A DNA stretch of 64,000 nucleotides from NCBI GenBank assembly GCA_003586115.2, contig QVOM02000001.1, positions 12,591,610 through 12,655,609 on the forward strand. Direction: 5' to 3'. The DNA is from Salvator merianae. Lineage: Eukaryota; Chordata; Lepidosauria; Squamata; Teiidae. A model generated the notes under the pieces. The model saw nothing but the letters and a program-made list of their open reading frames with translations. It made no database searches and was not told the origin of the DNA. Positions 26,202 through 61,653 of this stretch are shown here, in pieces; the stretch's first letter is position 1, and each line of letters starts with the position of its first letter. The position numbers and the translations under genes are program-made.

Positions 26202-27400
26202 GGCCGCGGTCCAACATCGTAAATTTAATCCGTATCAGAAGAGTACAAGGACTCAATTCATCTTCTGATCGTTTCCACAGTTACAGTTTAACACGCACTC
26301 AATTCGTACTTGCTTGTTCCCACACTGATATTTCCCATGCTTGGCACGGAGAAACAGTACCTTTTCTGCCTCCGCCCCTCGTCAAATTCTCTTCCCTGTG
26401 CAGTTAGTGATTGGCTGCAGTCCCAACGTTCAAGTCCTGATGTCACAGGGGCGGGAAAGCCCAGCTCCGCTCTCCGTATGTCCCCGCTGCTGCCTCAGAA
26501 CATGGATTCACTTGGCAGCATTACTAGTCATTTGCCATTTGTTCCTTCTCCCCACTACAGCCTCTATCTACACAAGCAGAACTTTAAAACTATGTGTACC
26601 ACACAATTAAGCTTTTTAAAGAGCTGGCGGTGATTTCTGCTCCCTTGCAAGTGCACTTTTGCGCAATTGCACAATTAAAAGTAGCGCAAAAGCAGGGAGA
26701 GGTCCGTGACGAAGGTGAAACGTGGGGAGGGAACATGGGGGGGGGGCTCTATTATCTTGATAGTGCAGTTCATCGCCAGCAAATGGACACTGCCTCATCT
26801 CCCCCCAAGACATCTGCAGCGACATGTGTCCCCGCTGTGTAGCTGTGTGCTGCCGATGGCAAAATTCATCTTGAGTGGTTTTTTTGTTGGGGCAAGAGGA
26901 CTGCAACCCCAAACAGGCACAGTTTATGTTTTGGTTTAAAGAGCAGACGGAAGTGGAGGAAGCCTTTAATTTCTTCCCGACAGTGTCGAATGGGGGATAA
27001 AGAAAGAGAAAGGACCGCAGCTTAGCGAAGTAAAAAGGAGGACGGTTTCTTTTCTCCTAGCAGCGACGGAAGGGGGGGATAATGGAGGCAGAGGAAACTA
27101 CTGCGCTTCCTGCCCACCCACAAAGTCTGTCATTGGATGGCACAAAATAGGGATCCCTCCCTCTGCACGCCCCCCAAAAACTACGGTCCCTCCCAAATAG
27201 TCTCCTTCCCCATTCCCACATCACAAAGTAAAGCGCGCTAGCGATCTGGAACGGCTTGAGAACTCATTAAATCTGAATACAAAGTAGTCTGGATTTTGCC
27301 AATTCAGTCCAGAAAAACTACGGAACGGCAAGATCACGTCGGGCCAGCGGGAACTGAAGACGGCCTGTAAACTGATTAAATGCCGTGTCGGAACGCAGCC
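26202..27400 (-). mobile_element. 1.2-kb GGCC-TIR DNA transposon, copy 1
   Basis: This is the reverse-oriented member of a four-copy family (others at 29810, 40855 and 60612). The plus strand starts GGCCGCGGTCCAACATCGTA and ends GCCGTGTCGGAACGCAGCC, so the termini are inverted repeats of about 18-30 bp with a shared inner TTTAATC. TTT flanks both ends (26199-26201 and 27401-27403). It has no transposase; its open frames are shared by chance between copies and have no domain features. Inside are CCAAT (26410-26414, minus strand), a CRE-like TGATGTCA (26438-26445) and a C/G homopolymer run. The superfamily is uncertain; a GGCC start and 3-bp duplication would suit PIF/Harbinger. Confidence 0.88.
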
Positions 27401-27496
27401 TTTGTTATTACTGAAATAATTGTGGTTGTTATGTTCTGCATCTTTGTTCTACAGCCTTTTGGTGAGCTTAACTGATCAAAACAGTGTGGGAGTGTC

Positions 27497-27610
27497 CTTA
27501 GCTCTACCACCTCTAGAATTGGGAGATCCCAGTTTAATCCTGGCATCTCCTCCTCCGAAGGTAATGGCTTAGCACTTTTTTATTGTTGCCAAGAAAACTA
27601 CATTGATATA
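27497..27610 (+). mobile_element. degenerate tRNA-SINE
   Basis: TTAGCTCTACCACCTCTAGA and GATCCCAGTTTAATCCTGGC resemble A- and B-box regions. They are followed by TTGTTGCCAAGAAAACTAC, which matches the body of the SINE at 838-1045. Strongly eroded. Confidence 0.45.
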
Positions 27611-28849
27611 TCCCTGGAGTTACCTGAAATCAAGGGGCACTTCACCTTTGTTTCCAGAAGAATATGCCAGATTTCAGGTTCTGTATAAAGCACCATGACA
27701 AGTTCCCCAGTGTGGAAGTTGGCCTTTTCATAGGTGTTGTGCAGTGGATCAGTTCCTTCTCCACTGAACTTGAGAACTCCAAAATATTTCCTCATCAGCA
27801 AATACACTATGCTTGTGCCAAACCAAATTTATGTATTAGTGAGCCCGATAAAGAAGGCCAGGACTGTTAGGTGCTCTGTTTCACACCACTACTACAATGG
27901 CTGACTGATCTGCAGGTGGTATGGGCACCCTTCACTATGATTACTGCCGCTGTAGCCATTTGCAGTTAGGAAAAATTGGGTGCCCCTCCCCCCCAGTTGC
28001 CAGAATTATTGCTGCTGCTGCAATTGATAGCTTGATGGGGGTGTTGGAGAATTTTGCCCTCATGCTGCCCAGCCATGTGCAAACCATGCCTAGTTTGAAG
28101 TTTTCTCTTACCTACATCCTAGTCATTGTCATCTAGGTATGGCTAAGTGGCCTAGAGCATAAAGATGCCAGTATGTTATTTATAATGGCAATAAAAGCTG
28201 TCACTCCATTTGTGTTTGTGTATCTGTGTGTGTTCCTGCTTCTGTCATAGTTTTATCAATATATCTGTTTATTACCTGTAATTCTGGGGGTTAAATAGAG
28301 CACCAAACAAAGCCTTCTCTTTGAAAAATAATAGTCATTTCAATAGCCAAAAAAAAAATAATAATGCTGATTTGCTGGCAATTCAATGTTTCCTCTAAAG
28401 ATTTTTTTTTAAAAAAGTGCCTTGAATCTTCTTACCTCAGGAAACTGATTCATTGGCAGGGACACGTCAGCAGATAACCTGAATGGGCAGTTCTGGTGGC
28501 TGGAAACGTAAGATGCTTGCTGGCTGCAAATTCAAAAGTATGGTAATCTGCAGACAGAGAGACCTTTAAGAGTTGCTCCTGAAATTACGACAGTGTATCA
28601 ACCACAGACAGTTCACCAAACTGAATGGTTGCTGGTTCTGTCCAGCAAATCTGTCCTTTGTTATGGCAAAACTCTTTTGGTGCTTTTGGTTCTGGTCTTC
28701 CAGTGTCACCAAGCATGTGATTTTCTATGCTTTGCAGAGCACATAAAGAGTTTTATTTTCTTTGCATATTGTGTTTGGAACAGGGACTGCATTGGTTTCT
28801 TTGATGACTGACCTGCACTTGGAACTGGGCAGAGAAAGTGTATTCTGTA
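27611..28849. other. intergenic, nothing recognised
   Basis: No gene or nameable repeat. Short oligo-A stretches occur near 28350 and 28410. Confidence 0.45.
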
Positions 28850-30602
28850 GGCTGTGCTGGATCTCTTAGTTGCCTTGATGCTATGGGCTGTGGAGTTCTG
28901 AGTCACCTAGCTGGAATGAGACTGAAGGCACTGTTTTATGGTGGCTCTGGTCTGTCTTGGAGGTGCAGTCGCATTAGTAATTTTGGGAGGGTTCTGTTCC
29001 ATGCCATGGTTCCTGATTTGTGGTGTTCTTCAGAGCCTCATTCTGCCCCCCATGTTGTTTAATATACTGTGTGAAGCCAGTGGAAAAGGAAGTCTATTGT
29101 TATAGAGGTTACTGCCACCAATATGCTGATGAAACCCAACTCTAGTTTCTTCTTTTCATCTAAATCTAAGGAAGCTATTCTAAACTAGCGTCTAACATTG
29201 ATAATGGACTAGATTAAGGCTGAAAAATTGAAACCACCCAGAAGAAACAGGTGCTCCTATTTGGTGTAAATGCACATTGGGGAATAGGGATCCAACCTGT
29301 GGTGCATGGGCTATGCTTCCCCTGGGTGGGGGTTTAGGTTCACAGTTTCAGCATACTTCTGAACTTCACTTTGAATCTGGATGCTTGTGGTTAGGCAGTG
29401 GCCAAGAGCATATTCGCAATGTTGAAATTAGTGGACGAGCCACACTTGCTAGATGATTGATCTGGCCCCAATGATTCATGTCTTGGATAAATCTCCTCTG
29501 GGCTGCCATGATGGGACTGCCTTTGAAAAATGCTGGGAAAATCCAGCTGATCCAGAGTGCTGCAACTAGACTGTTGATTGGAGCTAGTTGGAGAGTTCCT
29601 GCACCTCCTCTGCTGAAACAGCATCCCTGGATAACAGTCTGTTTTCAGGCTCAGTTCACACTAGGGAAGCATGATCTTTAAAGCCTATATGGCTTGGAAC
29701 TAGGCTGTTTGAGAAACTGCATCCTCCCATATAAGCCAGAATGCTTAGTAGAGGACTGTCTTTTTGTTTACACCAGCAAAGGCACAGATGGTGGCAGTGT
29801 GAGAGAAGGGGCCGCGTTCCGACACAGCATTTAATCAATTTACAGGCCGTCTTCAGTTCCTGCTGGCCCAACATGATCTTGCCCTTCCGTAGTTTTTCTG
29901 GACTAAACTGGCGAAATCCGGACTACTTTGTATTCGGATTTAATGAAGTCTCAAGCCGTTCCAGAGCGTTAGCGCGCTTTACTTTGCGATGTGGAAATGA
30001 GGAAGGAGACTATTTGGGAGGGACCGTACTTTTTTGTTGGCGTGCAGAGGGAGGGATCCCCATTTTGTGCCATCCAATGACAGACTTTGTGGGTGGGCAG
30101 GAAGCACAGTAGTTTTCTCTGCCTCCATTATCCCCCCTTCCGTCGCTGCCAAGGGAAAAGAAACCATCCTCCTTTTTATGTCACTAAGCTGTGGTCCTTT
30201 CTCTTTCTTTATTCCCCATTCAACACTGCTGTGAAGAAATTAAAGGCTTCCTCCATTTCCGTCTGCTCTTTAAAGCAAAAAATAAACTTCGCCTGCTTGG
30301 GGTTGCAGTCCTCTTGCCCCAACAAAGAATGCACTCAAGATGAGTTTTGCCGTCGGCAGCACGCAGCTACACTGCGGGGACACATGCCGCTGCTGATGTC
30401 TCGGGGGGGAGATGAGGCAGAGTCCATTTGCTGGTGATGAACTGCACTGTTGAGATAGTAGAGCCCCCCCACGTTCCCTCCCCACGTTTCCCCTTCGTCA
30501 CGACCTCTCCCTGCTTTTGCGCTACTTTAAAATTGTGCAATTGCGCAAAAGTGCACTTGCAAGGGAGCAGAAATCGCCACCAGCCCTTTAAAAAGCTTAA
30601 TT

Positions 30603-31964
30603 CCCAAGTCACGTTGTGTGCCGTCTTCAAGACTGTCGTCTTCAGGAATGTAAGTTTGGCCGATCCTCTTTTTAATTCATGAAGATATTAAAACTAAGAT
30701 AAACACTAAGAAAAGGAAAATAAAAGAAGAAAAAACCCTCTACAGTTACAGCTTGGATAATGTATGCCGAAAGTTTAAACATCGTAATTCAGCAAGATGC
30801 TAAAGTATTTGCAAAGACTGTGAATTTTTAGATAAATCATTCAAAGTTCTGTTCCTCGGACACGCTGGGGTTTTCAGTGTCTCATTAAAATACATTTGAG
30901 CTTCCCTTATCAGCTAAACAAATAAGCAGGCTGCAAAGATATGGGTTTAATTAAGACAAAGGAAGAAAAAAAAAAGTGCCTTTATTTATTAGAGGGCTTC
31001 TTCAGAGAACCAAGTTTTAAGCCAAATATGGAGAGGAAAAACCTACAACTAGAAAAAATTGAACAGTGTGACTCGCAATCAGATTTACTTCTTAAAAAAA
31101 TGGATGCTATTTTTCAAGAAATGAGGAGTTCCTTTGAGATTCAGGGGCTGACTTTTGAGAGATTAAGACAAGACCTTAAAAATGAAATAGGTGCTATATG
31201 CACTGAACTTCATGAAACAAAGGATAAGGCTTTGGAACTGGACGATTTTAAGGCAGAAATTCCTCAGACAAAATTTGTGGCTCAAGAAATACAGACTACA
31301 AGACAAGACGAGTTGTCTCTACTACTTATAACAGTTCAAGGTTATACTTTTTCACTTAAGGAAGCCTTGGAAAAAATCTTACAGGGGAGGAAGGAACATA
31401 TGAGGTAAATAATAACAGAAACAACCCATATTTGGAAGCAGCAAAGATTCAAACGGAAATCTGTGAATAAACAACATTTCTGGTGTAAACAAGGAAAGGA
31501 TTGGAGGAGGAGAAAAAAGAAAAAAAACCTGAAGGAGTCAGAAGGGGGAACTTAAGAAGTGGCTGAGTAGAATAATGGGCAGAAGCCAAATTATTGAAAG
31601 ACTGATATGAGAAGAAGATTCTGAGAGCTTGCGGAGATTGGATAAATATAATAATTTACAGAAAAATAAGGCAGTGGATAGATTTTTGTGAAAACTGGAA
31701 ACCCTCTATTGAACTTTTGCAAGATCTGGAAAGCGGACCTGGAAAATGGATTGGTGTTTGCTGGAGGGAGAGAATGAAGAGAAAAGAGGACTACTGATAG
31801 AAGATAAGAACTGTGTGGTTGGGGGGTATGAAATATAGAAGAAATCTGGGAAGTAGGAATTCAGTAGTTTAAAATGTTAATTGTCGAATCATGAGTTATT
31901 AAGTGTAATTTTATATATCAATAAAAAAATAAAAAAAAATAAAAAAACCAAAAATAATAAAAAT
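30603..31964 (+). mobile_element. L1-derived non-autonomous element (HAL1-like) with 13-bp TSD
   Basis: The direct repeat AAAAAGCTTAATT flanks it (30590-30602 and 31965-31977). The 3' end is A-rich (ATAAAAAAATAAAA onwards). Only 1362 bp separate the flanks, though an L1 is about 6 kb. It keeps a 155-codon open frame (30941-31408) of lysine- and glutamate-rich, coiled-coil character, like the N-terminal part of L1 ORF1. Later comes an ORF2 C-terminal relic (CTGGAAACCCTCTATTGAAC at about 31694) and a 3' UTR like that of the copy at 34809. So ORF1-type sequence is joined to the L1 3' end without most of ORF2. It inserted into DNA transposon copy 2. Confidence 0.85.
30941..31408 (+). pseudogene. 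L1 ORF1-like open frame, partial
   Basis: It is a 155-residue frame with heptad-like segments (LLKKMDAIFQEMRSSFEIQG, TFERLRQDLKNEIGAICTEL, HETKDKALELDDFKAEI). L1 ORF1 proteins are RNA-binding trimers, with an N-terminal coiled coil followed by an RRM and a C-terminal domain. Those last two are not seen here, so the frame covers at most the N-terminal half of the usual ~300-350 residues. It lies inside the non-autonomous L1 derivative. Whether it is translated is unknown. Confidence 0.6.
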
Positions 31965-32620
31965 AAAAAGCTTAATTGTGCGGTACACATAGTTTTAAAG
32001 TTCTGCTTGTGTAGATAGAGGCTGTAGTGGGGAGAAGGAGCAAATGGCGAATGACTAGTAACGCTGCCAAGTGAATCCATGTTCTGAGGCAGCAGCGGGG
32101 ACATACGGAGAGCGGAGCTTGACTTCCCTGACCCTGTGACGTCAAGATTTGAACGTTGGGACTGCAGCCAGTCACTGACTGCACAGGGAGGAGAATTTGA
32201 TGAGGGGTGGAGGCAGAAAAGGTACTGTTTCTCCGTGCCAAGCACGGGAAATATCAGTGTGGGAACGAGCAAGTACGAATTAAGTCCGTTTTAAACTGTA
32301 ACTGTGGGAACGATCAGAAGACGAATTCAGTCTTTGTACTCTTCTGATACGGATTAAATTTACGATGTCGGACTGTGGCCAAGGGCTGCTCCCAGGCCTT
32401 GGAACTCCCTACCAAGGGTCCCTAGCCTGATGTCCTTGTGTCTGTCATACTACCAGCAGATAAAGATGCTCTCACTTGGGCAGAATGGCAATGGAAAAAA
32501 GCTGTATGTTAAGAGACCCTTGGTTGAGTGCTTATTTCGCTTGCTTTTACTGCTTTTTTTCTTTATGCTGTTTTGCATTTTAATAACCTTGGTAAGTGGG
32601 AAACAAATGCAGTAATAGAG

Positions 32621-33044
32621 CCTTTGTGGATTGTGGGATTTGTCTGCAAGTCTTCATGCCCATTAACCTAGTTATGTATCTAATGCTGTGAATAGCAAAA
32701 TGGTTGCTGCCTTATTAACTGGACTGCACTCTTGAGCCTTCAACTATATCTTGAGCTGGGGACATTTACCAGTGTTTCAGCTGATTTGTGCATTTCAAGC
32801 ATCTGTTAAAAGGCACAGAAGTAGACCAATACAATTTTGCATTGGATGACTTGACAGCCTTGTTTGAGAAGTAGAATAAGGTTGTAGTTCCACTTCTTCA
32901 TAAATGACCTATTTCCCTTAATGCAAAGGCCCTTCCTCCCCTACTCATTTTTTTCTTTTAATGATAATTGGCAATGGATGGATGAATGGGTATGGGAAGA
33001 TGATATATCTGTGAGACAGATGTGATCTAAGTACCTTAATGGCT
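32621..33044. other. intergenic, nothing recognised
   Basis: No feature supported in this stretch. Confidence 0.45.
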
Positions 33045-33255
33045 GTTCCCTATAGAGAGAACTACGAACCTTGATGGCTTTCAAAGGGATTAGATCAACT
33101 CATGGAAGGCAGGACTTTCAAGGACTATTAGTCATTTTATTTCTGTACTACTTCCAGTCTTCAGTGCTGTATGCGCTTAGCTGGGGAATTGGGATACTGG
33201 ACCAGACAGACCATTGGTGTGCTTTAGCATGGGAGCTCTCATGCTGATACTCTTA
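33045..33255 (+). mobile_element. CR1-type LINE 3' tail
   Basis: The order GGCTTTCAAAGGGATTAGAT, CATGGAAGGCAGGACTTTCA, then GGATACTGGACCAGACAGAC and CATTGGTGTGCTTTAGCATG follows the well-known end of reptile CR1 copies (fragments at 45594 and 56333 are relatives). Truncated and diverged. Confidence 0.7.
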
Positions 33256-34791
33256 AACTCGTAGTGGAAAACTCTTCTCTATCCTCTCCCACTTGGGGAA
33301 AAGACAGAAATTTTTCATGAAAACTCTGTTATAATATATGCTTGATAACTTGGATACGTGTAGAAAACGTGCAAGGAATCTGGACTGGAAGGGATGAGTG
33401 ACCATTGAAGCTTGGGACTTGTCCCTAGATCAGATGCTGTCTTACATGCTACTGTTCAATTGTGTTTATTGCTGTGAATGGCTCTCACTTTGAGTTGCTG
33501 CTGCCATTGAATTAAATTCTTCCCCATTTTGACACTGTTTTGCCTTGTATTAAAGTTATTTTTTAAGACCTTCTACTCTTTAATAAAAATATACTTTGTA
33601 TTCAAATCAGCCTAGTTATTTCCCCTCCCTGAGGATCAGCTGTCAACTTGATGTCCAGAGCCTGTTGATAGGGTATTAAGTTCCAGTTTAAGCCCTGTTT
33701 CATAGGACCTCAAAGAACAAGTCTAAGAAAGCACTGTCAGTGTGGGCAATGCTGGAAGCATTCAATGTTGATAGAGGCTGAGACCTAATTCCTTATTTAC
33801 CTTGATCATAGGCAATTTATACATTTACGCACAGCTAAATATCAGGGTTCAGGAGAGGTCTGTGAGGTGGACTTTACCAGCCAAATGCTAGAATGCAGAT
33901 AAATAGCAATTTTATAAACCTCTGCCATGCCTTCTTGGCAGCAGCCTCTTGTGGATCAGGACTCATGTGATAGTGATGAATGTTACTATCTTATGGTGCA
34001 GTGACCATTGGGCCTCCTCATTCCTTCTATTTAATGGTCAGGTGCTGTGAGCCAAGCTAAGGAGGTGGGGCAAGGACAGGGGTGGTACAGGGGTGTTTTG
34101 GAGTGAACATTGGGATGAATGAAGGAGGTGGGACAGGGTGGCCTAGGGACAGGGTGAGAGTCACAGGATTAAGCTGAGCAAGTCACTCAGCTACTGACAT
34201 CTTGGGGAGCTCAAGGCTCCTTCTGTGCCAAAGTTGAGCATATGGTGCCCCTAAGCACCAAGGTACTGGCTCCACTGGCTCATCACCAGAGCCAGCTTTG
34301 TTAATGGCTGTAGTGCTGTTAGCTTTATGCAGTTGCCTGTTTCTCAGATTTAGCCTTCATCCTTCCCTAAGCTAATAGTGATAGTTGTTTTGCCCCCACC
34401 CCAACCCCTGCTTGAGTTTCAAAAGCAACTTAGGATGCTTTTGTTTTTCCTTGAGAGAGTTCTTATCTTTCTTTCTCACCATCCTGCCAATTAGAGCTAT
34501 TTCATAGTTTTGAGCAATCACATACCTCGCTTAGGCTTAGACTGTCTGTGTGCAGAGTCTGCCTCCCATAGGGAACTGGCAGTTTGTTAATATTACTGAA
34601 TCTTCCCTTGAATTCCTGCTCAAGGGGAGGAGTTCAGCACCAGGCCCTTTGGCCAAGAACAGAGAATGAAGGAGTATTCCTAATACCTGCTTTTCAGCAT
34701 GTTGCAGCTGCCAGTCAGAGGTACCCACAGAGGTACAGGACACCTTTATTTTGTGGTTAACAAATAAGGTATTCCTCCAACATTTTAGAAC
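33256..34791. other. intergenic, nothing recognised
   Basis: No gene or nameable repeat family recognised. Short frames without features. Confidence 0.45.
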
Positions 34792-34808
34792 AAACTAGTA
34801 ATAATTCT

Positions 34809-35170
34809 TGGAAAGGAGAGATAATACCAACGGTGGGTGATTGGTTAGTTAAAATGATGGAGCTGGCCGAGATGGACAAACTGACAAATCTTTTGAGAAT
34901 TAAGACAGTTGATAGGTTTTACAGGAACTGGAAACCCTTTATTGACTTTCTGCAAGAGCTAGACAATGGACTTGTGATTGCTGGATTTGAAGAGTGAAAA
35001 AGAAGAGTTTCAGTGCAAAAAGAAGGAAGGAGAACAGGACGTTGAAGAACACGAAGTTTAGAAGAAACTGTTAATGAAGGAGGAACTTGATAATAATAGT
35101 GATATAAGAATGTAATGTAAACTGTAATTTTATATATTTGAAATACAAGAACAATAAAATATGTTAAAAA
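34809..35170 (+). mobile_element. L1 LINE, 5'-truncated 3' end, 17-bp TSD
   Basis: A 17-base direct repeat with one mismatch flanks it: AAACTAGTAATAATTCT at 34792-34808 and AAACTAGTAACAATTCT at 35171-35187. Inside, the plus strand encodes the intact last part of L1 ORF2: DWLVKMMELAEMDKLTNLLR, IKTVDRFYRNWKPFIDFLQE, then LDNGLVIAGFEE and TGA (34995-34997). A short 3' UTR follows with AATAAA and a short A tail. The target duplication and A tail are the marks of L1 retrotransposition. The fresh look of the duplication suggests a fairly young insertion. Confidence 0.93.
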
Positions 35171-35187
35171 AAACTAGTAACAATTCT

Positions 35188-36103: not shown

Positions 36104-36134
36104 TAAAAAATAAAATAAAATAAAATAAAATAAA
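36104..36134. repeat. (TAAAA)n microsatellite
   Basis: About six TAAAA units in a row. Confidence 0.9.
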
Positions 36135-36267
36135 GAGAACTGTTGGATGGAAATTGTTCCCCAGAGCCAAAGCTTTAAAGCATGAAAGGACTGAGGGGGG
36201 TATTGAAAAACTAGGCTTTCAGACAGCAACAGGGAAAACAGGAAGGAAGATATTGGTGACTGTTGAA

Positions 36268-36435: not shown

Positions 36436-36542
36436 AAGCAAGAAAAAAGGAGAATACCTGGGTTTTCTTATACTCTAACTCAAATATCTGCTACCAGACT
36501 GTACACTATTTGCATATATGATAGTCCATCTGGGCATGGAAC

Positions 36543-40115: not shown

Positions 40116-40735
40116 AGAAGCCTTATATGATGCTTTAGGCCCTGAGGCATAGATCAGGAAAAATATGCACTTAATTTATTGCCAAAGTCCCTGGTAGGAG
40201 ATTGCCTGCCGCCAACTGCTGGTAAGAAAAAGTTCCTCTCCAAGACAAGATAAACAAATTCTAGCTCCTTGGTCTCATTAATGCACCTTGATGAGCTTGG
40301 GAGAATCTGTTGATCTGCTGTCAGGTAGACAGTGGCTGAAGGGTGACGTGAAGAACCCCTCTGAATCAGGCCAAAGGACTCTGCAGACCACCTGCATGGT
40401 CCTTGTGGAAGGAGGAACCTGTGGAAAGCCTACAAGTCAGATTGCAAGCAGAACAGCACTCATGTTCCCCAGGCCCTGCTTTTTTCCCTCAGGTGGATGC
40501 ATGTGAACATGCGAGATATTTTCTAGGTACTTGGAAAGCTGTTGCAGGCACCACTGTGTTCCTGGCTGCCACACGAATAATCCTTGCTGTGCTGCCCTAT
40601 GGTTCTTGGAGGAGTTCACCACCTCCAGGAACATCTCGAGGAGCTGGGTTAACATTCCAAATGCAGCCAGAAGCTTTGAGGACGAAGCAAGTGATGTGAA
40701 GGTGATGATGAATAGAAACTTCTTTGGCGCTGGGC
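40116..40735. other. intergenic, possibly left part of the element at 40736
   Basis: No gene recognised. The left boundary of the MITE interrupted at 40855 may lie somewhere in this stretch. Confidence 0.4.
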
Positions 40736-42211
40736 ACCAAGGGCTCTGAAGAGCTAGGGATGAATGTTCCTAGCCTCAGAGCCCCTGGGGAACCTGTTTC
40801 AGTGGTGTACGTTGGTATTCCAGCCTAGACCACACTGGTCTGCAAGTACACGTTGGCCGCGTTCCGACAAGGCATTTAATCGGTTTACAGGCCGTCTTCA
40901 GTTCCCGCTGTCCCGACATGATCTTGCCGTTCCGTAGTTTTTCTGGACTATATTGGCGAAATCCGGACTACTTTGTATTCGGATTTAATGAAGTCTCAAG
41001 CCGTTCCAGAGCATTAGCGTGCTTTACTTTGTGATGTGGGAATGGGGAAAGAGACTATTTGGGAGGGACCGTACTTTTTTGGGGGCGTGCAGAGGGAGGG
41101 ATCCCCATTTTGTGCCATCCAAAGACAGACTTTGTGGGTGGGCAGGAAGCGCAGTAATTTTCTCTGCTTCCATTATCCCCCTTTCTGTTGCTGCCAGGGG
41201 AAAAGAAACCATCCTCCTTTTTACTTCGCTAAGCTGCGATCCTTTCCCTTTCTTTATCCCCCATTCGACACTGCCAGGAAGAAATTAAAGGCTTCCTCCA
41301 CTTCCGTCTGCTCTTTAAAGCAAAAAATAAACTGCGCCTGTTTGGGATTGCAGTCCTCTTGCCCCAACAAAGAATGCACTCAAGATGAGTTTTGCCGTCG
41401 ACAGCACACAGCTACACAGCGGGGACACATGCCGCAGCGGATGTCTCGGGGGAAGATGAGGCAGAGTCCATTTACTGGTGATGAACAGCACTGTCAAGAT
41501 AGTAGAGCCCCCCCCCCCCACGTTCCCTCCCCACTTTTTCCCTTCGTTACGGACCTCTCCCTGCTTTTGCACTACTTTTAAATTGCGCAATTGTGCAAAA
41601 GTGCACTTGCAAGGGAGCAGAAATCGCCATCAGCCCTTTAAAAAGCCCTTTAAAAAGCTTGCGGAACATAGTTTTAAAGTTCTGCTTGTGTAGATAGAGA
41701 CTGTAGTGGGGAGAAGGAGCAAATGGCGAATGACTAGTAACACTGCCAAGTGAGTCCATGTTCTGAGGCAGCAGCGGAAACATATGGAGACCGGAGCTTG
41801 ACTTTCCTGCCCCTGTGACATCAAGATTTGAACATTGGGACTGCAGCCAATCACTGACTGCACGGGGAGGGGAATTTGGCAAGGGGTGGAGGCAGAAAGG
41901 GTACTGTTTCTCCGTGCCAAGCACGGGAAATATCAGTGTGGGAACAAGCAAGTACGAATTGAGTCCATGTTAAACTGTAACTGTGGGAACGACCAGAAGA
42001 CGAATTTAGTCCTTGTACTCTTCCCATACGGATTAAATTTACGATGTTGGAACACGGCCCTTGATATCGAGGTCTACCAAGGAACACATTCTGCCCTACA
42101 TGGCAGAGGGTACCAGTGTGGGGGGGAGTATTCTGTGTTCTGCATTAATGTGTGGAAGGGAGGCTTATAGTGTCTTTCAGGAACCGATCTAAGGGCCAGT
42201 GTAGAAAGGCC
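40736..42211 (+). mobile_element. larger palindromic MITE, split by transposon copy 3
   Basis: Left piece 40736-40854 and right piece 42060-42211 resemble parts of the element at 56827-57543. The left has CTAGGGATGAATGTTCCTAG (40754-40773), which is the palindromic block of that element. The right has GGTACCAGTGTGGG, TTCTGTGTTCTGCATTAATG and the end GTGTAGAAAGGCCC. The 1.2-kb GGCC-TIR transposon sits between them. The left boundary is not resolved. Confidence 0.6.
40855..42059 (+). mobile_element. 1.2-kb GGCC-TIR DNA transposon, copy 3
   Basis: It starts GGCCGCGTTCCGACAAGGC and ends CGATGTTGGAACACGGCC, about 1205 bp. It is collinear over its whole length with copies 1 and 2. It contains CCAAT (41847-41851) and TGACATCA (41816-41823), a CRE with one CpG-type change, a 10-base C run near 41511-41519 and a short duplication of CCCTTTAAAAAG near 41635-41660. 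Flanks GTT and CTT do not give a clean target duplication. No transposase. Confidence 0.88.
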
Positions 42212-45690: not shown

Positions 45691-45742
45691 TCCTTTAAAG
45701 TCTGATAAACAACTTGTGGTCCTTTAGATGCTGGATTCCAAT

Positions 45743-50705: not shown

Positions 50706-53700
50706 ATGAGTGTCTTGGGAAAGGCAAAGGTTAAAGGAGTAAACCCTGAGGCCCTGAAGCTGTTGAATGGACCACAGGTCATCTCTTTGGCAGCTCCTGC
50801 AGCCAACCCAGTGCCAAACATTGTGATAATACTCCTTTGGATCACAATGGCTAGTTTGAGAGGGAAAACTCTGATGCTTGGGCAGCTCAGAATTTCCATA
50901 CACTCATGGCTCAGGCTCTTTCCATTGTCTTTCAAGACAGAAGGATGTCAAGGAAGTCTGATGAGCCAGGGGGGATCATATTAATTAATCCTGCCCGAGC
51001 CTTTTGTTGCTTTCAGTATTGGTGTAGTCTTCAAAGGTCAGGGGGGAAAAACTTGCTTAGACGGCTGCACCGGTCTCTTGAAGAATGGATTAATTACTCC
51101 CATGTTCTGAGATGTTCAAGCAGATTAGCTTTTCATTGTACATTGCTGATGTGGTTTGGTTCCATGATAGCATTATCTATGTAGATATAAGCACAGCATT
51201 GGCACTGGACTCTTTTCCAGACATTTGTAATATTACATCAGTAGCCTGTTGTCTCCGGTGTTGGACCCACATGGCTCAAAACATATGTTAAGTTTTGGGA
51301 TGCCACCTTCCTCTGTCAGCTGTGGCTTTTCCTGCAACAGATCAACAATTACCCCATGCAAGGCTCAAATTTCTCTGGAATTGAAAAAAGAAGGATTTTT
51401 AAAAATTATTACACTTTTTATTATGAATGCTCATTTTATGGAGTCTCTCTCTTTCTCTTTCTTCTTCTGTCTCTGCTGGCATGGGATGCTAAAAGGATCA
51501 GAAAATATCTTATTACAGTGCCAGATCTTTTGTTTTCTATTGAACTTTGAATGGCAGGATGCTATCTTAGAACATTAGTTGCCTCTAGCTTCAACCATGT
51601 GGCTTTGTTAAGACAGTGGGAAAGCAAGCTATAAATTTTAAGAAACAATAGTGAATAACAACTTTCTCTGTGTTTGTGCGTGTTTATAAATGAATCAGTT
51701 AGACCCTGGTGAGAAGCTTGTTATATCTCTCCTGAATTTCCCAAGAAGGCAGCTGTTCACAAGTAAGGAGAAGAACGTAACAGATCATCGCTGCTCAAAT
51801 GTTATGGATCTGTGGAAGCTGTGGAAGATTTGGTCAACTTTGGTTCTGACTTCCATTAGAATGCCTAGTGGTAAAAAATAATGGGAATGGAGTCCAAAAT
51901 GTGAACCAGTCTACAAACTCCTCAGCCTCACTCTATGGGAATCTTGCCACCTTAAGCACATACAACACTGTGCTGCCTTGCTCTCTTTTCCTTGAAGGAA
52001 GGCTTGCTTTATATACTGATGCTGACTTTTTATAGTTTAGCTTAGCTCTGCTCATGCTAAACCCTCACCATTAGGGCTAATCCTTCTCTTGTCTTGGTGT
52101 TTACACTGCAAATTTTTGCTAGCTTCTCTCACCCTGCCCACCCCACTGTACTTTTCTTAGGCTGAACAAATAGATTTGTATCTTGATCTTCTTAGCCCTT
52201 GAGTATTTAGAAATGCCTGTGCTCTCTCGCTCTCCTTCTGTGTTTTGGACAGCCTGTAGGTTTCGCAGATCATGAATTGCTCAGAAAAATACATAATATT
52301 CCTGGGTGTGTTCACAGTAATCCAAAAATACGTCCAGCATCTCACTGCTGGACAACAGCAATAATGGAAAGTACCAAGAACCAGATAACTTTGCAATATT
52401 ACTGCTATGCATTTAACACAATGAGAATCATGTTGTTGGAACATCCCAAGCCAACATTCCATTTTCAACAGCAGCTCCCAGTATATCCCTTGTCGGCTCA
52501 CAAATTAGGCTGGATTGTGATGGATGTTCTGCAGTTGTTTATTCCCAGTCTCTAATGCACAGAGGCATCCTGCCCTAGTAGAAGCAGGATTCTTTTAGTA
52601 GTCATCGATAACAGTAATCAATGGCCTGGAAGTACTCCAAGAATACCCACAGTCGCCCCTTGTATTACATGGTTTTGTACAGCATCGTTTTGCTCCTACA
52701 CAACCAGTAAAATTCAGCTTCCTTCATTTCTGCCATGTCTCCACTAGGGCAGGAGAAGCCGGCACCAGTTCAGGTGTGGCCTAGTCCACTGTCTAGGTTG
52801 GCCTGAGAGGTGTTGATGCCTGCGTAATGGAGGCCATATCTTTTGGTCTATTGAGAACTGGCCATGCTGTGCAGATGCTGGCAGCCACCTCCATTTGGCT
52901 TGCAGTGGCTCCATGGCTGCTGCAAGTTGAACTCTGCACTCTCTGCACTCTGTCTCTCACCTTAGGGCAGCAGCGTGATGTTAACATCAGAAAGCCAAAC
53001 ATGTGAAGTATGAACTGTGCATCTGTTCAGCCATAATGTAGAAATGGTGCTGGAGGGATGAACTAACTATGGGAGTCATAGGACAGGATCCCAGGCACCA
53101 TATCTTGTTGTTTATCTGAGAGCCCCACTACTTAGACAATGGATTATACTTGGCCATCAACTCCTGTCCCCTCTGCTTCGTCCATAACTAGACGTTTGCC
53201 TACAGGTTCTCCCAAGGTGTAAAACTGTTTAGCTGACTGTGCCTCCATATCAGCATGATCCTGTCAGTCCTGGAGCAGGAGAACTCCACTTGCATAATCA
53301 AGCACTGCACCATAGAATCTGGGACATGATATTAAGATGCAGCCTGAGGACAGTCAAACCCTATCTAGAGGGGATGGACACCTTTTACTTACTCTTCCTG
53401 GGTTAATCTGGAGTTAGTACTATCTATTGTTACAGTTTTGTCTCATGCAAGGATCTTCTCTTAGGATACATTTTAGGGTATAAGAGTAGAAGGTCTGGGA
53501 CTAGTTGTGTTGTCCTTTACTCCACAAGCCCAAGGGCTAAACTCTGGATGTGTGCATATGTGTATGTGTGTGGTCATCCATTTCACTAAGGGCTGGAACT
53601 CTGCTGCTGAAATCATTATTCAGGGCCGAGGAGAAATCCGCATCATCTGACTTCTTCCAAGGTTCTGAATTGTCTGTGGCTGCTGAGATTTGGGATGTCT

Positions 53701-56332
53701 CAACCTTGAGCCTATACAGCTGCCTTCCAGGGCTTGGCATATTAATTGCACAGTCACAATGACTTGCTTGGCTTGCCCTAGGGGTTATAACTGAGTGATT
53801 ACTTCCAAATTTCAGGATCCTCTTCCCTGCCAGAGTCCCCTTCACTCTTTTTCTCCTTTTCTCCTTTAGATTAGTCTTTCTTTTTTCCCCTTCCAAAAAG
53901 GGGAGCAGTGATTCAGGAGTGCACCAATTGACTGGGCTTAATTCATTCATTCTGAGTGGGAATTCAATTGGGAAAATCACAGAGAACAGTTGATTGAGGT
54001 GGAAAGGGGGAGGTAATTGGTCTGCTACACCAGTGGCTCCCCAGCAATTGAGTGAAGATTTTTTCCTTTACAGTGGAGTGGAGTTCCAGAGCTCTGTGTA
54101 GCAATGCTTATTGGCTGGCTGATTTTTCCCAGGCTTCCCCAATCAAGTAGCTGATTCCCAACCTTGCTCCTAGCTTGCCTTCACCATTACTGTTCTTGTT
54201 AAAGTTATACATTGTTGCTCTTCTATTTGTTGTTAAATGTCCCCTAGTTCTACCTTGTGTCTGTAAATAAAATTGTTACCTGAGTATATTTTTCTCAAAT
54301 ACAGTTATATCAGGATCGGCCTTGCTCATTTCCTTCTTCCTATGGGTCAGCTGCCTGTGGCTATAAAAGCAAGCAAAGAGGGACTGATTTCAGGCAGGAA
54401 AACCATCTGAAAGATTGGTTGGTTTTATTTGGATGGTGTTATTTATGCCCCTCTGTTTAGCAAATTCTGGAGTTAAACAGGGTTTTTTTTTTAATGTTGG
54501 TATTCTTGAGCTGTGCCTCCATGTGCTGTCCCAAATGCCTCAGAGGATCATCTGGAGCATCATGTTTCAATGTCCAGTGGCACAAGATACCTACTGGTGA
54601 CCTCAACCCTTACCTGAGGCAGCTGGAAACTATGATATGAAATGGTGCTCAGCAGGCAAGTACCTCAGCCATCTCTTCTTCAGATGCCTCCCATGCTGGA
54701 AATGGAGACGCGGAAGCGCCTAGTGATGCGGGGGGGGGGGGCTTCTGTGACGCTGCCTACCCCCAGGCTTCTGCTGTACCACACGGTGAGACATGGCCTC
54801 AGTCCCTACTCCCAGCATTTTTCAAGTTGTAAAGCAGAAATCTGATCACAGATCTGCAGAGCCCTGTCAGTTTCAACCCTTCAGGCATATATTTAAAAAA
54901 TGTTCCATATGTGAAGTGACCTTGACTCATGCATTGCTAGCCAGAAAAGATCGTCGTCGGATGCCTCTGGGGTTCTTTCTCAACATTTCCTTCCTTCTAT
55001 CTTTGTGCCATCAAGGTGCTGTGAATCTCCCTGATCCGTGGGTTATCTGGAAGTGGGGGCTTCTCACGCGCTCTCACTGCAGAGTGAAGTCACAAAAACA
55101 TTCCAAAGAGAGTGAGAGCTAATAGCTTTTATCAGTTCTGTAAGCAGTCTGAAAATCTTATAAATCCCCTCACAGAGGGGATTGCAGATTGATGGGCTCT
55201 GCTGTATGTAATGTTTTTCAAATACATCTTGCTAATATCTCATAAGTCAACCAACCATGATTTCAGAGGTAGTACACAGTCACCCTGATTAGTAGACATC
55301 AATAATCTTATCTCCCCCAAGCCTGGAAAAAAAATTCTAGAGCTAAGCTCAGCCCCTGATGACTACATAAATGCATCTATGCATTTTTCTTGGCAAAAAT
55401 TTGGAATTGGTTTCCTATTGCCTTGGTGAAATGCGGTAAACAAAAGCTTGACAAACCTCTTCAGCTTCTCTAATGGTTTTGATTTCACCAGCTGGCACGC
55501 AGAGCCAGAAAGACTACTTTCCTTTCAGGACAGGCTAAGAATGTCAACAGACACGGTAAAATCCAGACATGAAACATGAGTATTCTACAACTGATTGACC
55601 AAGAACCAGAATAATTATTCCTTTGATCAGGCATAGCTGAGCACCTTAGTCTAGACACTTAATCAGGCCTGGCCAATCCAGGGGCTTCATATTGCTCAGC
55701 TAATGAAGGAGGCTGACCTTGCACAACAGGGTTACCAACTCTGAAAGGACTGTCTGTTGAATGGTGGTTTCATCTGCAGTTATGAGCTGGTTGCAGTTTG
55801 TTCTCGTATCCAAAAGCTTCAGCTATTGATTTTGATACACACAGACTTCAGGATTCATCTACACAGAGATGTGTAGGCCATGCCTTTCCAAGAAAGTGAA
55901 GGTTTTTCCATATCCTCATCAAGCATTCCAGTGTCGGAAGAGGCACAGATGATGTGCCCTGAGTTAGCTGTAGAGGGACATACATGTGTGTGTGTTGAAT
56001 TCACCTGCAGTAGGCAGAGCTAAAGGCAGTAGTGCATATTCATTAAGTCACATTTCCAGCACACATTTTGTACATATGATTATTTCCCCCCCACCCCAAG
56101 TGACTTTTGCAGTCTTCATGGACATATATCTACATATTATCTTTTAATGTGTCCAAATAATCTCCCAATTTTTGCATTAGGATGGCCAGCAAATGTAATT
56201 TTGGGTGGGAGGGAAGGTTCCAGTTTTGCCAATGATAGAGGATTCATCGATGTGGTGATTGGATGTAATGATAACCACACAACATATTCAGCTTCTGGAA
56301 CATTGCCCTCTTATGAGGCCATGGATGCTGGT
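50706..56332. other. long intergenic stretch, nothing recognised
   Basis: About 5.6 kb in which I recognise no gene and no repeat family with confidence. Short GT-rich repeats occur near 53555 and 55985, and an 11-base G run near 54730. The frames here are short and have no conserved features. Confidence 0.45.
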
Positions 56333-56440
56333 GTCCTTTGTAAGAACATAAATGCCCCATTGGATCAAGCCTACGACCCACCTAGTTCAGCAGTCTGTTC
56401 TTCTTATCATGGCCAAAGAGTGCACAACCTGACATTTATA
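56333..56440 (-). mobile_element. CR1-type LINE 3' fragment
   Basis: The plus strand reads TGTAAGAACATAAATGCCCC, ATTGGATCAAGCCTACGACC, CACCTAGTTCAGCAGTCTG, the reverse complement of the CR1 3' tail found at 45594. Truncated on both sides. Confidence 0.75.
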
Positions 56441-56826
56441 GGTAACCTGACAATTACTATATGCATGGTGTCCAAGTTGCCTCTTTGATTGTTGCATCTA
56501 CTCTTTATTTTGGTGGCTGATGAAGCCTTTCATGGCGAGACTGGATTCCATGCAGGCTTACTTTAACAATTGCCTTGTCTGGACATGCCATATCCTTGAG
56601 CGTGCCTTTGTCAAGGCTAAGAACTGTTGCCGTTGTTTCTGCATGGGATATCCTCCATAACACTTGCAAGGGCAAGGGGCATGACATTGTGGATACAGAG
56701 AATGCTCACGGGGGATTTTGTTTAAGTAATTCCCCCCTTCCAAAGTGGATTTGAGAAGAAGCACAGGTACTCTTTTGGAGGGCTATGAGGCTGAGAAATT
56801 GATGTTATGGTGACTCTTCTGCACTT

Positions 56827-57543
56827 GGGGTCTTCTGCACTTGCCTTGTTCTAGGCCAGTGGGTCTGGATCAGCAAGGTCTGCTGGGCTGGAACACAGCA
56901 AGGCATAGTTTGGAACAGCACCATCTGCATGACAGTGCAGGTCCAAACCAGCTCCCGCACCAGCCTCAAAGCTCCAATGGTGCCAAAGGGCTAGGAATGA
57001 AAGTTCCTAACCTTGGAGCCACCAGAGGACCTATTTTGGTGGCACACTTTGGGGCACTGCCAAAGTGGGTTCCCTGGTAGTTCAGAAAACAAGCTTCGGA
57101 ACTGGCCTCCTAATACTCCAAAGAGCTAGGAATGAAAGTTCCTAGCCTCAGAGACATGAGGCTTCAGGGCCGGCCTTGAGGCCTCCAGAGAGCTAGGAAT
57201 GAAAGTTCTTAGCCTCACAGCTGCTGGGGAATTCATTTCTGCTGCATGCTTTAGTGCACCACCAAAATGGGCTCCCTGGTAGTCTGGAACATGGAGGTGT
57301 ACCTTCTGCATGCCTCCATGATGTAGATCATTCCAAGCTGGTATGCCAGTAGACCAGTTTAATTAGATCTACTGGTGATCTAGATCAAGGGCTCCTTGAG
57401 CTGGATCATGCTCCATCTAATGCAGACAGGCCATACCAGACGTGGGTAGGGCCTCTCTGTTCTGCACTAATGTGCACACAGATGAGGCCCAGAAGAGGGT
57501 TACAAGGGCTTGTATTCTGGAACAGGCAAATGCAGAAAGGCCC
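56827..57543. mobile_element. 717-bp MITE with three internal palindromic blocks
   Basis: The left end GGGGTCTTCTGCACTTGCCT and the right end GGCAAATGCAGAAAGGCCC are inverted repeats, with the symmetry continuing into TTGTTCTAG and CTGGAACA. Inside, the palindromic 20-mer CTAGGAATGAAAGTTCCTAG or a close variant occurs three times (56991, 57126, 57193), each near GCCTC or GGAGCC. The termini resemble the 180-bp MITE family. No coding capacity. Confidence 0.6.
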
Positions 57544-58730
57544 TTGGTCTCAGGCCTTCCGCTTACGCTGTATGACCAAATAATTGATAATCGTTTGTCT
57601 GCATCACAACACTCCTTGCCCTTTGACTGCTGTTGACTTGCCCAGTACGTTGCTGTCAGTCACCCCACCCCCCTCAAACAGTCAACCAAGGAACACAAGG
57701 AAATGTGGAGTCCTCCTTGAAAATGTTGACCCTAGGATGGCTTCTTCACCAGAAAGATGAAAGTCTCTAACCTGTAATGTGTTTCCACAGGCATTTCAAT
57801 ATTCTTGGGTTTAGTGATGTGAATTTGTGCATCTTTATATTGGTGAGAGATTCAGATTTACCAAGGTATATCCAGTGCAGCTTTAGTCACTGAATAAAGA
57901 GGGACCTACAATGAACTTCTTTCACATGAGACAACACCGGACTAGTTAAAAAGTACTGAAAAGAGATTCCTTAAAAGGAGATTGGAATGACTTGCTGGCA
58001 TATTCTGATGTGTGTCATGTAAACTAGGAGCACTCTTATGTTGATCCCAAAAGACCCTATTTGCAAACATACAAGGGGTCTCTGTCTCACTTAATGCCTT
58101 TTGTGTTAAATTTACACATACTGTGCATAGTATTTACATTGTGCTACCATATGTTTCAGCAAATTGCATATGGTGATGACACAGTTTGCAGAAATTTAGC
58201 AGGTTCCCAGGGTCACATTTTCCCAGGAGTGCTATTGAAAAACCTACTTCAGGTGAATAATTTGACATTTAAAAATGGCTGCCATGAAGGATTATTTTCA
58301 AGAGCACTTCCACATAAGCATAACTGGGTCTGCAGACAAAACTTTGTTAAGAGAGGACAAGAAGTCCAGCATCATCTAGTGGCTAGCCTGCTGGGTCAGA
58401 ACCTAAGGGCAAAATCATATGGACTTTGTGGGGATGGCTATATACACAGGATCGCTTCATGTATGGATGCATTAAAAAAACCTGCATTAACACAGTTTAA
58501 AAAATAAGCCTCCTATCAAGCTTACCTCCCATTGGCTGCCACCAACCCAACTTTCCATGGCTCCTACTGGTCAACCATCCCTAGCAGCCATTTCCAGGCT
58601 GCTGTTGGCTATAGGAGCCTGTGTAGCTTCCCACCCCATCTGACCTAAACTGCGAGGCACCCCGAGAATTATTACTTCCCATCTGTGGAAAGGGCACACA
58701 AGTCTCATCTTTGGAATGAGGAAAAGTGTT
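57544..58730. other. intergenic, nothing recognised
   Basis: No gene found; the 148-codon frame at 58061-58507 lacks domain features. A block with CCAAT-type motifs at 58525-58620 resembles 25009-25100. Confidence 0.4.
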
Positions 58731-58733
58731 TTT

Positions 58734-58935
58734 ATTATTATTATTATTTTACATTTGTCCCTAAGAGTCCTGGGGTCTGAATCCCTACTCTGCTATGGCA
58801 CCTCAGTGTATGAACTTGAGGCAGTCATGATCTCTCAGTTTAACCTACCTCTCAGAGTTGTTGTGAGGATGGAGAGCAGGAGAATAACCTTTGCAGCTGT
58901 TTGGGAAAAGCAGAGGATGTAAATGCTGAAACAAA
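58734..58935 (+). mobile_element. SINE with MIR-like core, preceded by (TTA)n
   Basis: GGGGTCTGAATCCCTACTCT is a B-box region. It is followed by CTCAGTTTAACCTACCTCTC and AGAGTTGTTGTGAGGATGGA, the core typical of squamate SINEs. A short TTA repeat (58731-58748) lies at its left edge. Confidence 0.65.
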
Positions 58936-59390
58936 CAAGAAACCTTACCAAGGCTATCCCCCCCCCCCCATTGATTTCTGACTCACAGCAGCCTATGTTC
59001 ACTTTCTCATAGGTAGGCATGAGAACACAAAGTCCAAGAAGCTCTCTAAGATTGCCCTCAGGCTTTGGCATTCCTGTTGCAATTCTTCCTGCCCCCAAGA
59101 ACATTGACATATTGGCCAATTCTCCGTGAGACAGAACTTCTGTGCCTTTAATTCTCTGCAGCATGGGAAGAATTTTAACTGGTGTCACCTTTGACCAGCT
59201 GTAGTGTGCTTTGAAGGAAAGGTTTGCTGACTCAAAAGTTCCCCTTCCAGCAAAATTTTTAAAGAAGTAGGAGCCCTTTCTCCTTTATTATGGCTGGCCA
59301 AATCACCCACAAAAAGTAGTGTAAAGAAGCTGGCAGAAGCCTTGCTTTTCTAAGCCTTCAACCAGTGGCCCAAAAGCCATTAATTCAATT

Positions 59391-59525
59391 TACCCAGGAT
59401 TGTATTGAGAATGCCAGACACATAATCGTGTCATTCCCAGTACAATCCTGGGTTAGTGAGGTGATATCCTGTAATTTGGCTGTTATGGGAAATTTGGCAG
59501 TCATGCTGGGTTTCCCATAATAGCA
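59391..59525. mobile_element. hairpin-rich MITE-like element
   Basis: ACCCAGGATTGTATTGAGAATG (first 20 bases shown as ACCCAGGATTGTATTGAGAA; 59392-59413) pairs imperfectly with CATTCCCAGTACAATCCTGG(GT) at 59432-59453. A second stem is formed by GCTGTTATGGGAAA (59479-59492) and TTTCCCATAATAGC (59511-59524). The second stem resembles the one at 39960-40001. Confidence 0.6.
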
Positions 59526-60611
59526 AGGGTTACTTATGTGTCTGCCTGCTCCTTCTGTTATTATTTCACTTGGGGCTACCAGGATGCCAGCCAAGTGTAT
59601 GAAAACAAGAAAAGGAAGCGGATTGGTGCTTGGCTGGCTTCCGGGTTGCTACAAGTGGAATTATAACGAAAGGAGCTGGTTGTCACCAGGTGAGCCCATG
59701 ATTGCCTCCTGTGCTTGATGAGGATGGCAAAAGACAATTGCCTCTTGTTATCTGGAGACATCCTTTGGTTATTGTTTGGCAGTCACATCGCACTCAGCTG
59801 GAGCTTTGAAGCTGCTAATGCTGAATTACTTAGCTTTTCCTTCGCTCAAGCACTCCTGTCTCTGTGTTGCCCTAGTTTCACATCATAGGCAGTGTCAAAA
59901 ATCAGAAAACTAACAAGCCTGTAGATAATCATGAACATTTCTAGAGTAATTTCAAAAAGAAGCAGTGCTCCCCGCATGGTTCTACTTTGTCTGGAAAACA
60001 GCACCGGAGAATTAGAGGCCGTACCTGCAGTATGCATGAATGTCAGAGCACCTGAAGATCATTTAAAATGGATTATCAAGCTATCAGCTCCCTTTGCGGG
60101 CCAATTTACTGGCTTGAATGCCCACTGTACCTGCTTCAGTGACTACTCAGGCCTAACTTTATGCGCTACCTGAACTTCTCTGCATTTGTGTGCTTATCTC
60201 GCCTGCCCTTTCTTCCCTGGCAGAGGAAAAGAGAGCATTGATGGGTGTTTGGGGTGGAATATTAGACAGCAAGATGTACTGGAGATGTGTAGTATGTTCC
60301 TCTGAGTAATTTGGAACAGTCACACATCTTCTGAAGTGAGTATTTGGTAGAGGAATCCCTCTTTTTCATGAACACAGGGCATACAATCGTGCTCTGCCTC
60401 TGAGACTGCTGTATTTCAGCTGGGTTGCAGCATTGGGTCTGCTTTCTGTAATATCCTAATGTCTGCACATCCCCTTACTACCACCACCTGACAGAAAGAA
60501 GGGCACGTGGGAAAGCCTGAAGAAAAATTGGTGAATACTGTTCCTTTAATTCAGATCAAAGAGCCAGACCAGCATCAAGATCTTCACCACCTTAACTATT
60601 TACCATAATTT
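59526..60611. other. intergenic, nothing recognised
   Basis: No gene or nameable repeat recognised. Confidence 0.45.
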
Positions 60612-61653
60612 GGCTGCGTTCCGACACGGCATTTAATCAGTTTACAGGCCGTCTTCAGTTCCCGCTGTCCCGACATGATCTTGCCGTTCCGTAACTTTTA
60701 TGGATTAAATTGGCGAAATCCGGATTACTTTGTCTTCGGATTTAATGAACTCTCAAGCCGTTCCAGATCGCTAGCGTGCTTTACTTTGTGCTGTGGGCAC
60801 GGGGAAAGCGATTATTTGAGAGGGACCGTACTGTTTTGGGGGGCGTGCAGAGGGAGGGATCCCCATTTTGTGCCGTCCAATGACAGACTTTGTGGGTGGG
60901 CAGGAAGCACATTAGTTTCCTCTGCCTCCATTATCCCCCCTTCCCTCGCTGCCAGGGGAAAAGAAATCGTCCTCCTTCTTCGCTAAGCTGCGGTCCTGCC
61001 AGGAAGAAATTAAAGGCTTTCTCCACTTCCGTCTGCTCTTTAAAGCAAAAAATAAACTGAGCCTGTTTGGAGTTTTGCCGTGGTCAGCACACAGTTAAAA
61101 ATAGTAGAGCCCCCCCCCACGTTCCCTCCCCACTTTTCCCCTCTGTTATGGACCTCTCCCTGCTTTTACGCTACTTTTAAATTGCGCAGTTGCGTTAAAG
61201 TGCATCAGCAGGGGAGCTCAAAAGTTCAAAAGAACTTTAAAAAGCTTAAAGTTCATAGTTTTAAAGTGAACATAGTTTTAAAGTTCTGCTTGTGTAGACA
61301 GAGGCTGCAGGGAGGAGAAGGAGCAAATGGCGAATGCCTAGTAACGCTGCCAAGTGAATCCCTGTTCTGAAGCAGCAGCGGGGACATACGGAGAGCGGAG
61401 CTGGAGTTTCCCGCCCCTGTGACGTCAAGGTTTGAACATTGGGACTGCAGCCAATCGCTGACTGCATAGGGAGGAGAATTTGACGAGGGGTGGAGGCAGA
61501 AAGGGTACTGCCAAGCACGGGAAATATCAGTGTGGGAACGAGCAAGTACGAATTGACTCCGTGTTAAACTGTAACTGTGGGAACGACCAGAAGACGAATT
61601 CACTGCGTGTACTCTTCTGATACGGATTACATTGACGATGTCCGACCGCGGCC
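60612..61653 (+). mobile_element. GGCC-TIR DNA transposon, copy 4, internally shortened
   Basis: It starts GGCTGCGTTCCGACACGGC and ends GACGATGTCCGACCGCGGCC, 1042 bp. It is collinear with copies 1-3 but lacks several internal segments, for example part of the stretch between the AAAAAATAAACT block and the C run. It keeps both a perfect CRE (TGACGTCA, 61420-61427) and CCAAT (61451-61455). Flanks are TTT and TTA. Confidence 0.88.

Follow-up and report, generated by a model that had tools for sequence, protein, structure and literature searches.

A non-coding PIF/Harbinger-type transposon family in the tegu Salvator merianae and its likely long partner element

The stretch analyzed here, 64,000 nucleotides of the genome of the tegu Salvator merianae (contig QVOM02000001.1, positions 12,591,610 to 12,655,609; hereafter the window), contains four copies of a 1.0–1.2 kb DNA transposon with GGCC ends. 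This short family is very probably a non-coding, high-copy member of PIF/Harbinger, of the PHIS type (PIF/Harbinger-ISL2EU-Spy), moved in trans by the transposase and Myb/SANT protein of a rare long element. Its assignment agrees with the features found: short inverted repeats, a 3-bp target duplication, a DDE_Tnp_4 partner with the same ends and a Myb/SANT gene. The initial annotation, made from the letters of the window, had offered PIF/Harbinger as a hint; the duplications, empty sites and long same-ended element described below bear this out.

RESULTS

Four copies in the window and their ends

The four copies and their parts are located as follows (positions in the window).

26202–27400, minus strand: copy 1, non-autonomous element, 1,199 bp (repeat search and end comparison)
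26199–26201: target duplication TTT of copy 1, low side (flank reading, plus strand)
27401–27403: target duplication TTT of copy 1, high side (flank reading, plus strand)
29810–30602, plus strand: first half of copy 2, ending in the 14 bases (30589–30602) that a retroelement insertion duplicated as its target
30603–31963, plus strand: retroelement in copy 2, 1,361 bp, with an A-rich 3′ end and the 14-bp duplication TAAAAAGCTTAATT
31964–32380, plus strand: copy 2, second half; the flanks of the whole copy match at two of three bases, or as AAGG/AAGG if read as 4 bp
40855–42059, plus strand: copy 3, 1,205 bp, query for the 1.2-kb subfamily; flanks GTT/CTT, two of three bases matching
40855–40869, plus strand: 5′ terminal inverted repeat GGCCGCGTTCCGACA, example from copy 3
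42045–42059, minus strand: 3′ terminal inverted repeat, example from copy 3
60612–61653, plus strand: copy 4, 1,042 bp, second subfamily; flanks TTT/TTA, two of three bases matching

Four collinear copies with common inverted termini had been annotated initially, and both observations were reproduced. Ungapped repeat search and blastn recovered every copy at these coordinates, aligned block by block in the same order (ungapped blocks 73–97% identical), and 15-bp repeats were matched at all eight ends. The terminal motif GGCCGCGKTCSGACA, allowing up to three mismatches, has eight matches in the window, which are precisely the eight element ends; 0.55 matches were expected, and none of 100 shuffles reached eight.

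We aligned 31 copies, leaving out L030 and copy 2. The inverted repeats are 15 bp long and fully complementary in the majority consensus. Mean divergence from this consensus was 3.6% (2.0% without CpG sites), a figure that is biased because 28 of the 31 copies were chosen as best matches to copy 3.

The copies were also said to lack a transposase and to be too long for a typical miniature inverted-repeat transposable element (MITE). No domain was found by a Pfam search of four open reading frames (ORFs) of the short element, and a tblastn comparison of the partner transposase and Myb proteins (described below) with copies 1, 3 and 4 and the L051 variant gave no credible match (best E 0.043). 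MITEs are short (under about 600 bp), non-coding and of high copy number; the present family is non-coding and of high copy number, but at 1.0–1.2 kb it exceeds that length, with one 535-bp deletion copy seen. As expected for such an element, it had no match in a phage collection, and Rfam at gathering scores had no match in the window.

Target duplications and empty sites

For the analysis of targets we used 33 copies with both ends: the four window copies and 29 loci fetched from the genome as best matches to copy 3 (L001, identical with copy 3, was dropped). The absence of a consistent target duplication from the flanks of many copies had been named at the outset as an outcome that would count against a DNA transposon of this type. 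A perfect 3-bp duplication was found in 27 of the 33 copies, namely 26 of the 29 fetched ones and one of the four in the window (copy 1); two of three bases match in four copies and one of three in two. As a control, the left flank of one copy was paired with the right flank of another; 6.3% of such pairs matched. Since only copy 1 is perfect among the window copies, the target rule was read from the genome copies.

Longer duplications are nearly absent: a perfect 4-bp match occurs once (copy 2, AAGG), and matches of 5, 6, 7 or 8 bp, which include the 8-bp hAT type, in none of the 33. This observation bears on the origin of the family in some other superfamily (hAT, Kolobok, Merlin and others), or as a retroelement or satellite. 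By themselves GGCC ends do not identify a superfamily, and the duplications of three of the four window copies are imperfect; still, given the 3-bp duplication, the inverted ends, the DDE_Tnp_4 partner and the dispersal of copies among unrelated flanks, such an origin is extremely improbable.

The target is preceded by C in 22 and followed by G in 26 of the 33 copies. Among the 27 perfect duplications, 14 read TNA, eight read TWA, and six lie within a full CTNAG. The target resembles C|TNA|G, as a strong preference rather than a rule, and fits the NuwaII group best; the canonical TWA duplication of PIF/Harbinger in the strict sense does not fit.

When the flanks were joined and compared with the genome, three of the 33 copies aligned across the junction elsewhere; copy 1 also matched its own locus once. 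L026 (target TAT) lies inside a dispersed repeat, and nine other stretches span its junction without the element. All nine have a single trinucleotide starting with T, preceded by C (seven) or G (two), and in eight it is followed by G. For L023 (TCA) there are six element-free alignments: two have TCA at the junction, and the other four show small gaps or differences at it. The sites matching L026 and L023 are paralogous empty sites, as a transposon predicts. L005 yielded two weak junction-spanning alignments (67–68%).

Abundance and subfamilies

The genome sequence searched comprises 2.047 Gb. With up to three mismatches, a 40-mer of the 5′ end has 8,509 matches (4,340 + 4,169), about one per 240 kb, and a 40-mer of the 3′ end has 2,790; the reversed controls gave none. 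These counts are lower bounds for the ends, because the probes miss some known copies (the 5′ probe recovers 30 and the 3′ probe 23 of 33). At ∼1.15 kb per 5′ end, the family is an interspersed repeat of an estimated 10 Mb, roughly, of the tegu genome.

There are several short subfamilies with the same ends and different interiors. With copy 3 as query the best 40 of 9,627 candidates all match, the main matches being 90–94% identical (self excluded). With copy 4 the main matches among the best 40 of 4,165 candidates are 95–98% identical (self excluded); therefore copy 4 represents a separate 1.04-kb subfamily. Members of a third group (L051, L054 and L055; best 40 of 2,485 candidates scored) have ∼281 bp of the 5′ end and 250–270 bp of the 3′ end in common with the window copies at 79–88% identity, and a different interior of 0.8–0.95 kb. 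L058 is a 535-bp copy with an internal deletion.

The copies had been called strikingly dense. This is correct locally, as four copies stand in 64 kb where the genome mean predicts 0.27 (Poisson P = 1.7e-4); across ∼32,000 windows, however, about five such windows arise by chance, and therefore the local density alone is not exceptional. A second 5′ end lies within 1.5 kb at three of the 29 fetched loci (0.36 expected, P = 0.006), or at five of the 29 by blastn. Local hopping was considered as the cause of clustering and set aside, as a shared insertion preference accounts for it equally well. Family copies are often 0–3 kb apart (L003, L011, L015, L016, L028, L056 and L057, the last two taken from paired lists).

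A long element with the same ends

An autonomous element with these termini had been suggested as something to seek in the same genome. A likely partner was found: a long element with DDE_Tnp_4 and Myb/SANT genes and the same ends. The PF13359 profile detected many Harbinger transposases (best 150 of 391 candidates scored). Among 23 transposase places read (L031–L050 and L059–L063, two pairs of which overlap: L042 within L049 and L033 within L050), one, L060, bears the 3′ end of the family, 92% identical to copy 4 over 202 bp and 81% identical to copy 3 over 212 bp. Copy 4 has the 3′ end nearest to that of the long partner among the copies compared. The parts of the long element are listed here.

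L060:1945–2490: transposase ORF, no Pfam match
L060:2494–3114: transposase ORF, DDE_Tnp_4, E 5.6e-30
L064:79–468 (C1589 copy): first Myb/SANT gene, Myb_DNA-bind_4, E 1.5e-12
L067:2341–3231 (C1589 copy): second Myb/SANT gene, Myb_DNA-bind_4, E 3.6e-18
C1442:10358–26365: complete long element, 16,008 bp, both ends matched
C152:5100549–5108323: deleted long copy with both ends, 7,775 bp
C1442:26171–26365, C152:5108129–5108323, C1602:9179751–9179927, C745:146301–146493 and C1814 (40 bases only): 5′ ends near the tail

The nearest named database proteins to the L060-type transposase are from gecko (51% identity), and one of them is annotated HARBI1. Aligned with relatives from gecko, turtle and mussel, L060 has D27, D116 and E152; we take these to be its catalytic residues. 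The second D is missing from both L065 and a Gekko japonicus protein. The two Myb/SANT genes are 31% identical to each other. The first shares 38% identity with a Myb from a different Harbinger family of this genome, and the second is nearest to gecko proteins named MSANTD7 and ZSCAN29-like (54–58% over about one-third of the query). At L060:3239, on contig C1589, an exact 1,173-bp duplication stands beside N, probably an assembly error.

Several observations indicate that the long element behaves as one mobile unit. The C1442 copy (L065/L066) and the L060 copy have blocks 87–91% identical over more than 11 kb, the same inverted-repeat start and different flanks. Of the 40 candidates scored with a query that spans the end of L060, 19 are long copies, L060 itself among them. 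The other 18 start at query positions 88–101; the inverted repeat is at 101, so similarity breaks within 13 nt. A PF13359 match lies 1.4–2.8 kb inside in 14 of these 18 (15 of 19 with L060), and the other four have none among the matches listed. The remaining 21 candidates match the end only, 18 over the last ∼200 bp like the short family and three over somewhat more. Six long copies compared over 139–400 bp outside the inverted repeat have no mutual similarity there; read in the orientation of the element, the outer trinucleotides of these copies are TAA, AAA, TGA, AAA, TTC and CTA.

The far end was approached with a joined query consisting of a 500-base piece ∼17 kb further in (C1589) and the 5′ end of the family. 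It found 18 tail copies, C1589 included, and beside five of them the 5′ end, reaching the outermost base; for the other 13 no 5′ end was shown in the stretch that the search covers around each candidate. As both family ends are present at C1442:10358–26365, this is a complete 16,008-bp element; in comparison with copy 4 its 3′ end is 89% identical over 219 bp and its 5′ end 93% over 195 bp. In 14 copies with the 3′ end and the tail, the two lie 12.2–20.6 kb apart (7.1 kb in C152), on one strand and in the same order. About 1.4 kb of the 16.0 kb is a nested long interspersed nuclear element (LINE) fragment, CR1-like by eye and common to several long copies at different places, which suggests that the block spread after the LINE insertion.

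Blocks of 16 kb could also arise by chance nesting or by segmental duplication, with a short copy placed beside an unrelated Harbinger element. Nested material is indeed present (the LINE fragment, and an extra 1.2 kb in C1589), several blocks are on small contigs and some are in tandem 11.5–12 kb apart. The break near the same terminal base in all 18 further copies, the unrelated flanks of six, the constant order and strand of the 3′ end and distal tail in 14, and the inner LINE fragment common to copies at different places nevertheless make this origin of the blocks quite unlikely.

Two candidate elements of 4.7–5.4 kb, obtained by pairing listed 5′ and 3′ ends, were rejected: each consists of two short copies in tandem.

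DISCUSSION

Which transposase moves the short copies

The tegu genome has several other DDE_Tnp_4 families among the best 150 profile candidates, so the short family might be moved mainly by one of these (cross-mobilization), for example by the young L032-type family. Five copies of that group (L032, L035, L037, L038 and L041) are 97.1–98.7% identical and look younger; L032 carries transposase and Myb/SANT ORFs, and the end of the group likewise starts with GG and includes CG.TC..AC. The readable ends of other families differ, however, from those of the short family (GGGTACGATCACAC in the L032 group and GGGCCTKTTCRCACTGAGG in the L049 group). At the 22 transposase places other than L060 (L031–L050, L059 and L061–L063), neither the terminal 281 bp nor the terminal 265 bp of the family was found in the stretches read, which for about ten places covered only 1.5 kb on either side. 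For the same reason a helper among the best DDE_Tnp_4 matches (L031–L042) was rejected: the sequence read there shows no family ends, and the L032 and L049 groups end differently. As L060 does bear ∼200 bp of the 3′ end of the family, we regard cross-mobilization as unlikely.

Several points weigh against the long element as the helper. Both long copies that were read are damaged: L060 contains an N and the exact duplication, and L065 has another residue in place of the second D. For the long element, only one side of the target duplication was read. A 5′ end lies near the tail in only five of 18 copies, as judged from joined-query coordinates and not read through, and of those five only C1442 and C152 have the 3′ end listed as well; no 5′ end appeared in 17.3 kb read onward from C1589. 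Some 700 bp inside the short element match nothing in the long-element stretches that were read. Full CTNAG accompanies just a minority of perfect duplications, and the data examined hold no sign of present activity of the family.

Mobilization of the short copies in trans fits because the ends are shared while there are several interiors. Under mobilization by the long element, the partner proteins would bind the element ends and cut the element out, and it would then be inserted into a C|TNA|G-like target, of which 3 bp would become duplicated; short copies, which retain the terminal 200–280 bp, would be moved in trans. For the known Harbinger system, a Myb-like protein that binds the ends and the transposase, the entry of both into the nucleus and excision by the transposase are described in PMC9179366. 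The action of the L060-type transposase on the short copies, the order of these events and any part played in them by the second Myb/SANT gene are inferred.

Comparison with known systems

Tourist-like MITEs such as mPing are a few hundred base pairs long. We propose that the tegu family, like rice mPing, is a non-coding derivative on which a Harbinger transposase and a second element-encoded protein act in trans. It differs in its length of 1.0–1.2 kb, and, to judge from the stretches of the partner that were read, its interior is no simple deletion product.

NuwaII, a PHIS group, resembles the tegu family in its C|TNA|G-like target, 3-bp duplication and inverted repeats mostly starting with GG, and resembles the partner in having a DDE transposase plus a Myb/SANT gene; it is described from 12 host species, one of them a turtle (PMC4482050). 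Membership of NuwaII is tentative: the full CTNAG motif is seen in six of the 27 perfect tegu duplications, and the canonical PIF/Harbinger TWA (PMC4482050) in eight of 27. Autonomous NuwaII elements average ∼4.7 kb, mostly with two ORFs, and autonomous PIF/Harbinger elements ∼4.1 kb (PMC4482050), in contrast to 16.0 kb and two Myb/SANT genes in the complete tegu partner. Harbinger-Snek of sea kraits likewise combines a transposase with a Myb-like protein and, by its description, has short non-coding variants sharing ends and duplications (PMC8437027).

The short family is of a known kind, and the unusual part is the size of the partner and its second Myb gene. Tentatively, the partner may represent an oversized Harbinger lineage, of 12–16 kb and more, with a transposase and two different Myb/SANT proteins, driving the movement of at least 8,500 short copies, which kept the terminal 200–280 bp and repeatedly acquired unrelated interiors; the second Myb/SANT protein, with its gecko relatives, might then be a new functional part of the machinery, but its gene could also be a passenger. 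Should the length of the helper and its second Myb gene prove functional, the known coding capacity of animal Harbinger transposons would be widened, and there would be a natural test case for few helpers feeding thousands of copies. In any case an unclassified vertebrate repeat becomes a defined donor–recipient system with short copies, a target rule, empty sites and a likely helper.

No publication was found that by its title or the start of its abstract describes this family, which is no proof of its absence from print, Repbase or Dfam. PMC6304105, on the first tegu assembly (2.026 Gb), gives tegu repeats as totals.

Other features of the window

Copy 2 had been noted before as interrupted. 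The copy is split at 30602/30603, and the interrupting 1,361 bp are no part of the transposon. TAAAAAGCTTAATT stands at 30589–30602 and again at 31964–31977. The insertion is itself repeated genome-wide (best 40 of 3,540 candidates 94–99% identical, self excluded), and therefore it is a retroelement that landed in the transposon; most scored relatives begin at its first bases, giving a sharp 5′ start. The 14-bp duplication and the tail suggest an L1-like insertion. With such identities among its copies the repeat is a fairly young short retroelement, and it may be an L1-like element with an internal deletion.

Keratin exons lie on the minus strand at 11661–21234. The one at 20494–21234 belongs to KRT18: its 246-residue query ORF is, over 55% of its length, 99% identical to Salvator merianae keratin 18, and 65–82% identical to proteins of other named squamates among the matches listed. 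The exon at 11661–12086 is keratin-like by eye only. Diverged direct repeats of 60–99 nt with a common core like AGAGCTAGGAATGAAAGTTCCTAGCCT occur at 56959–57283 and 40722–40781.

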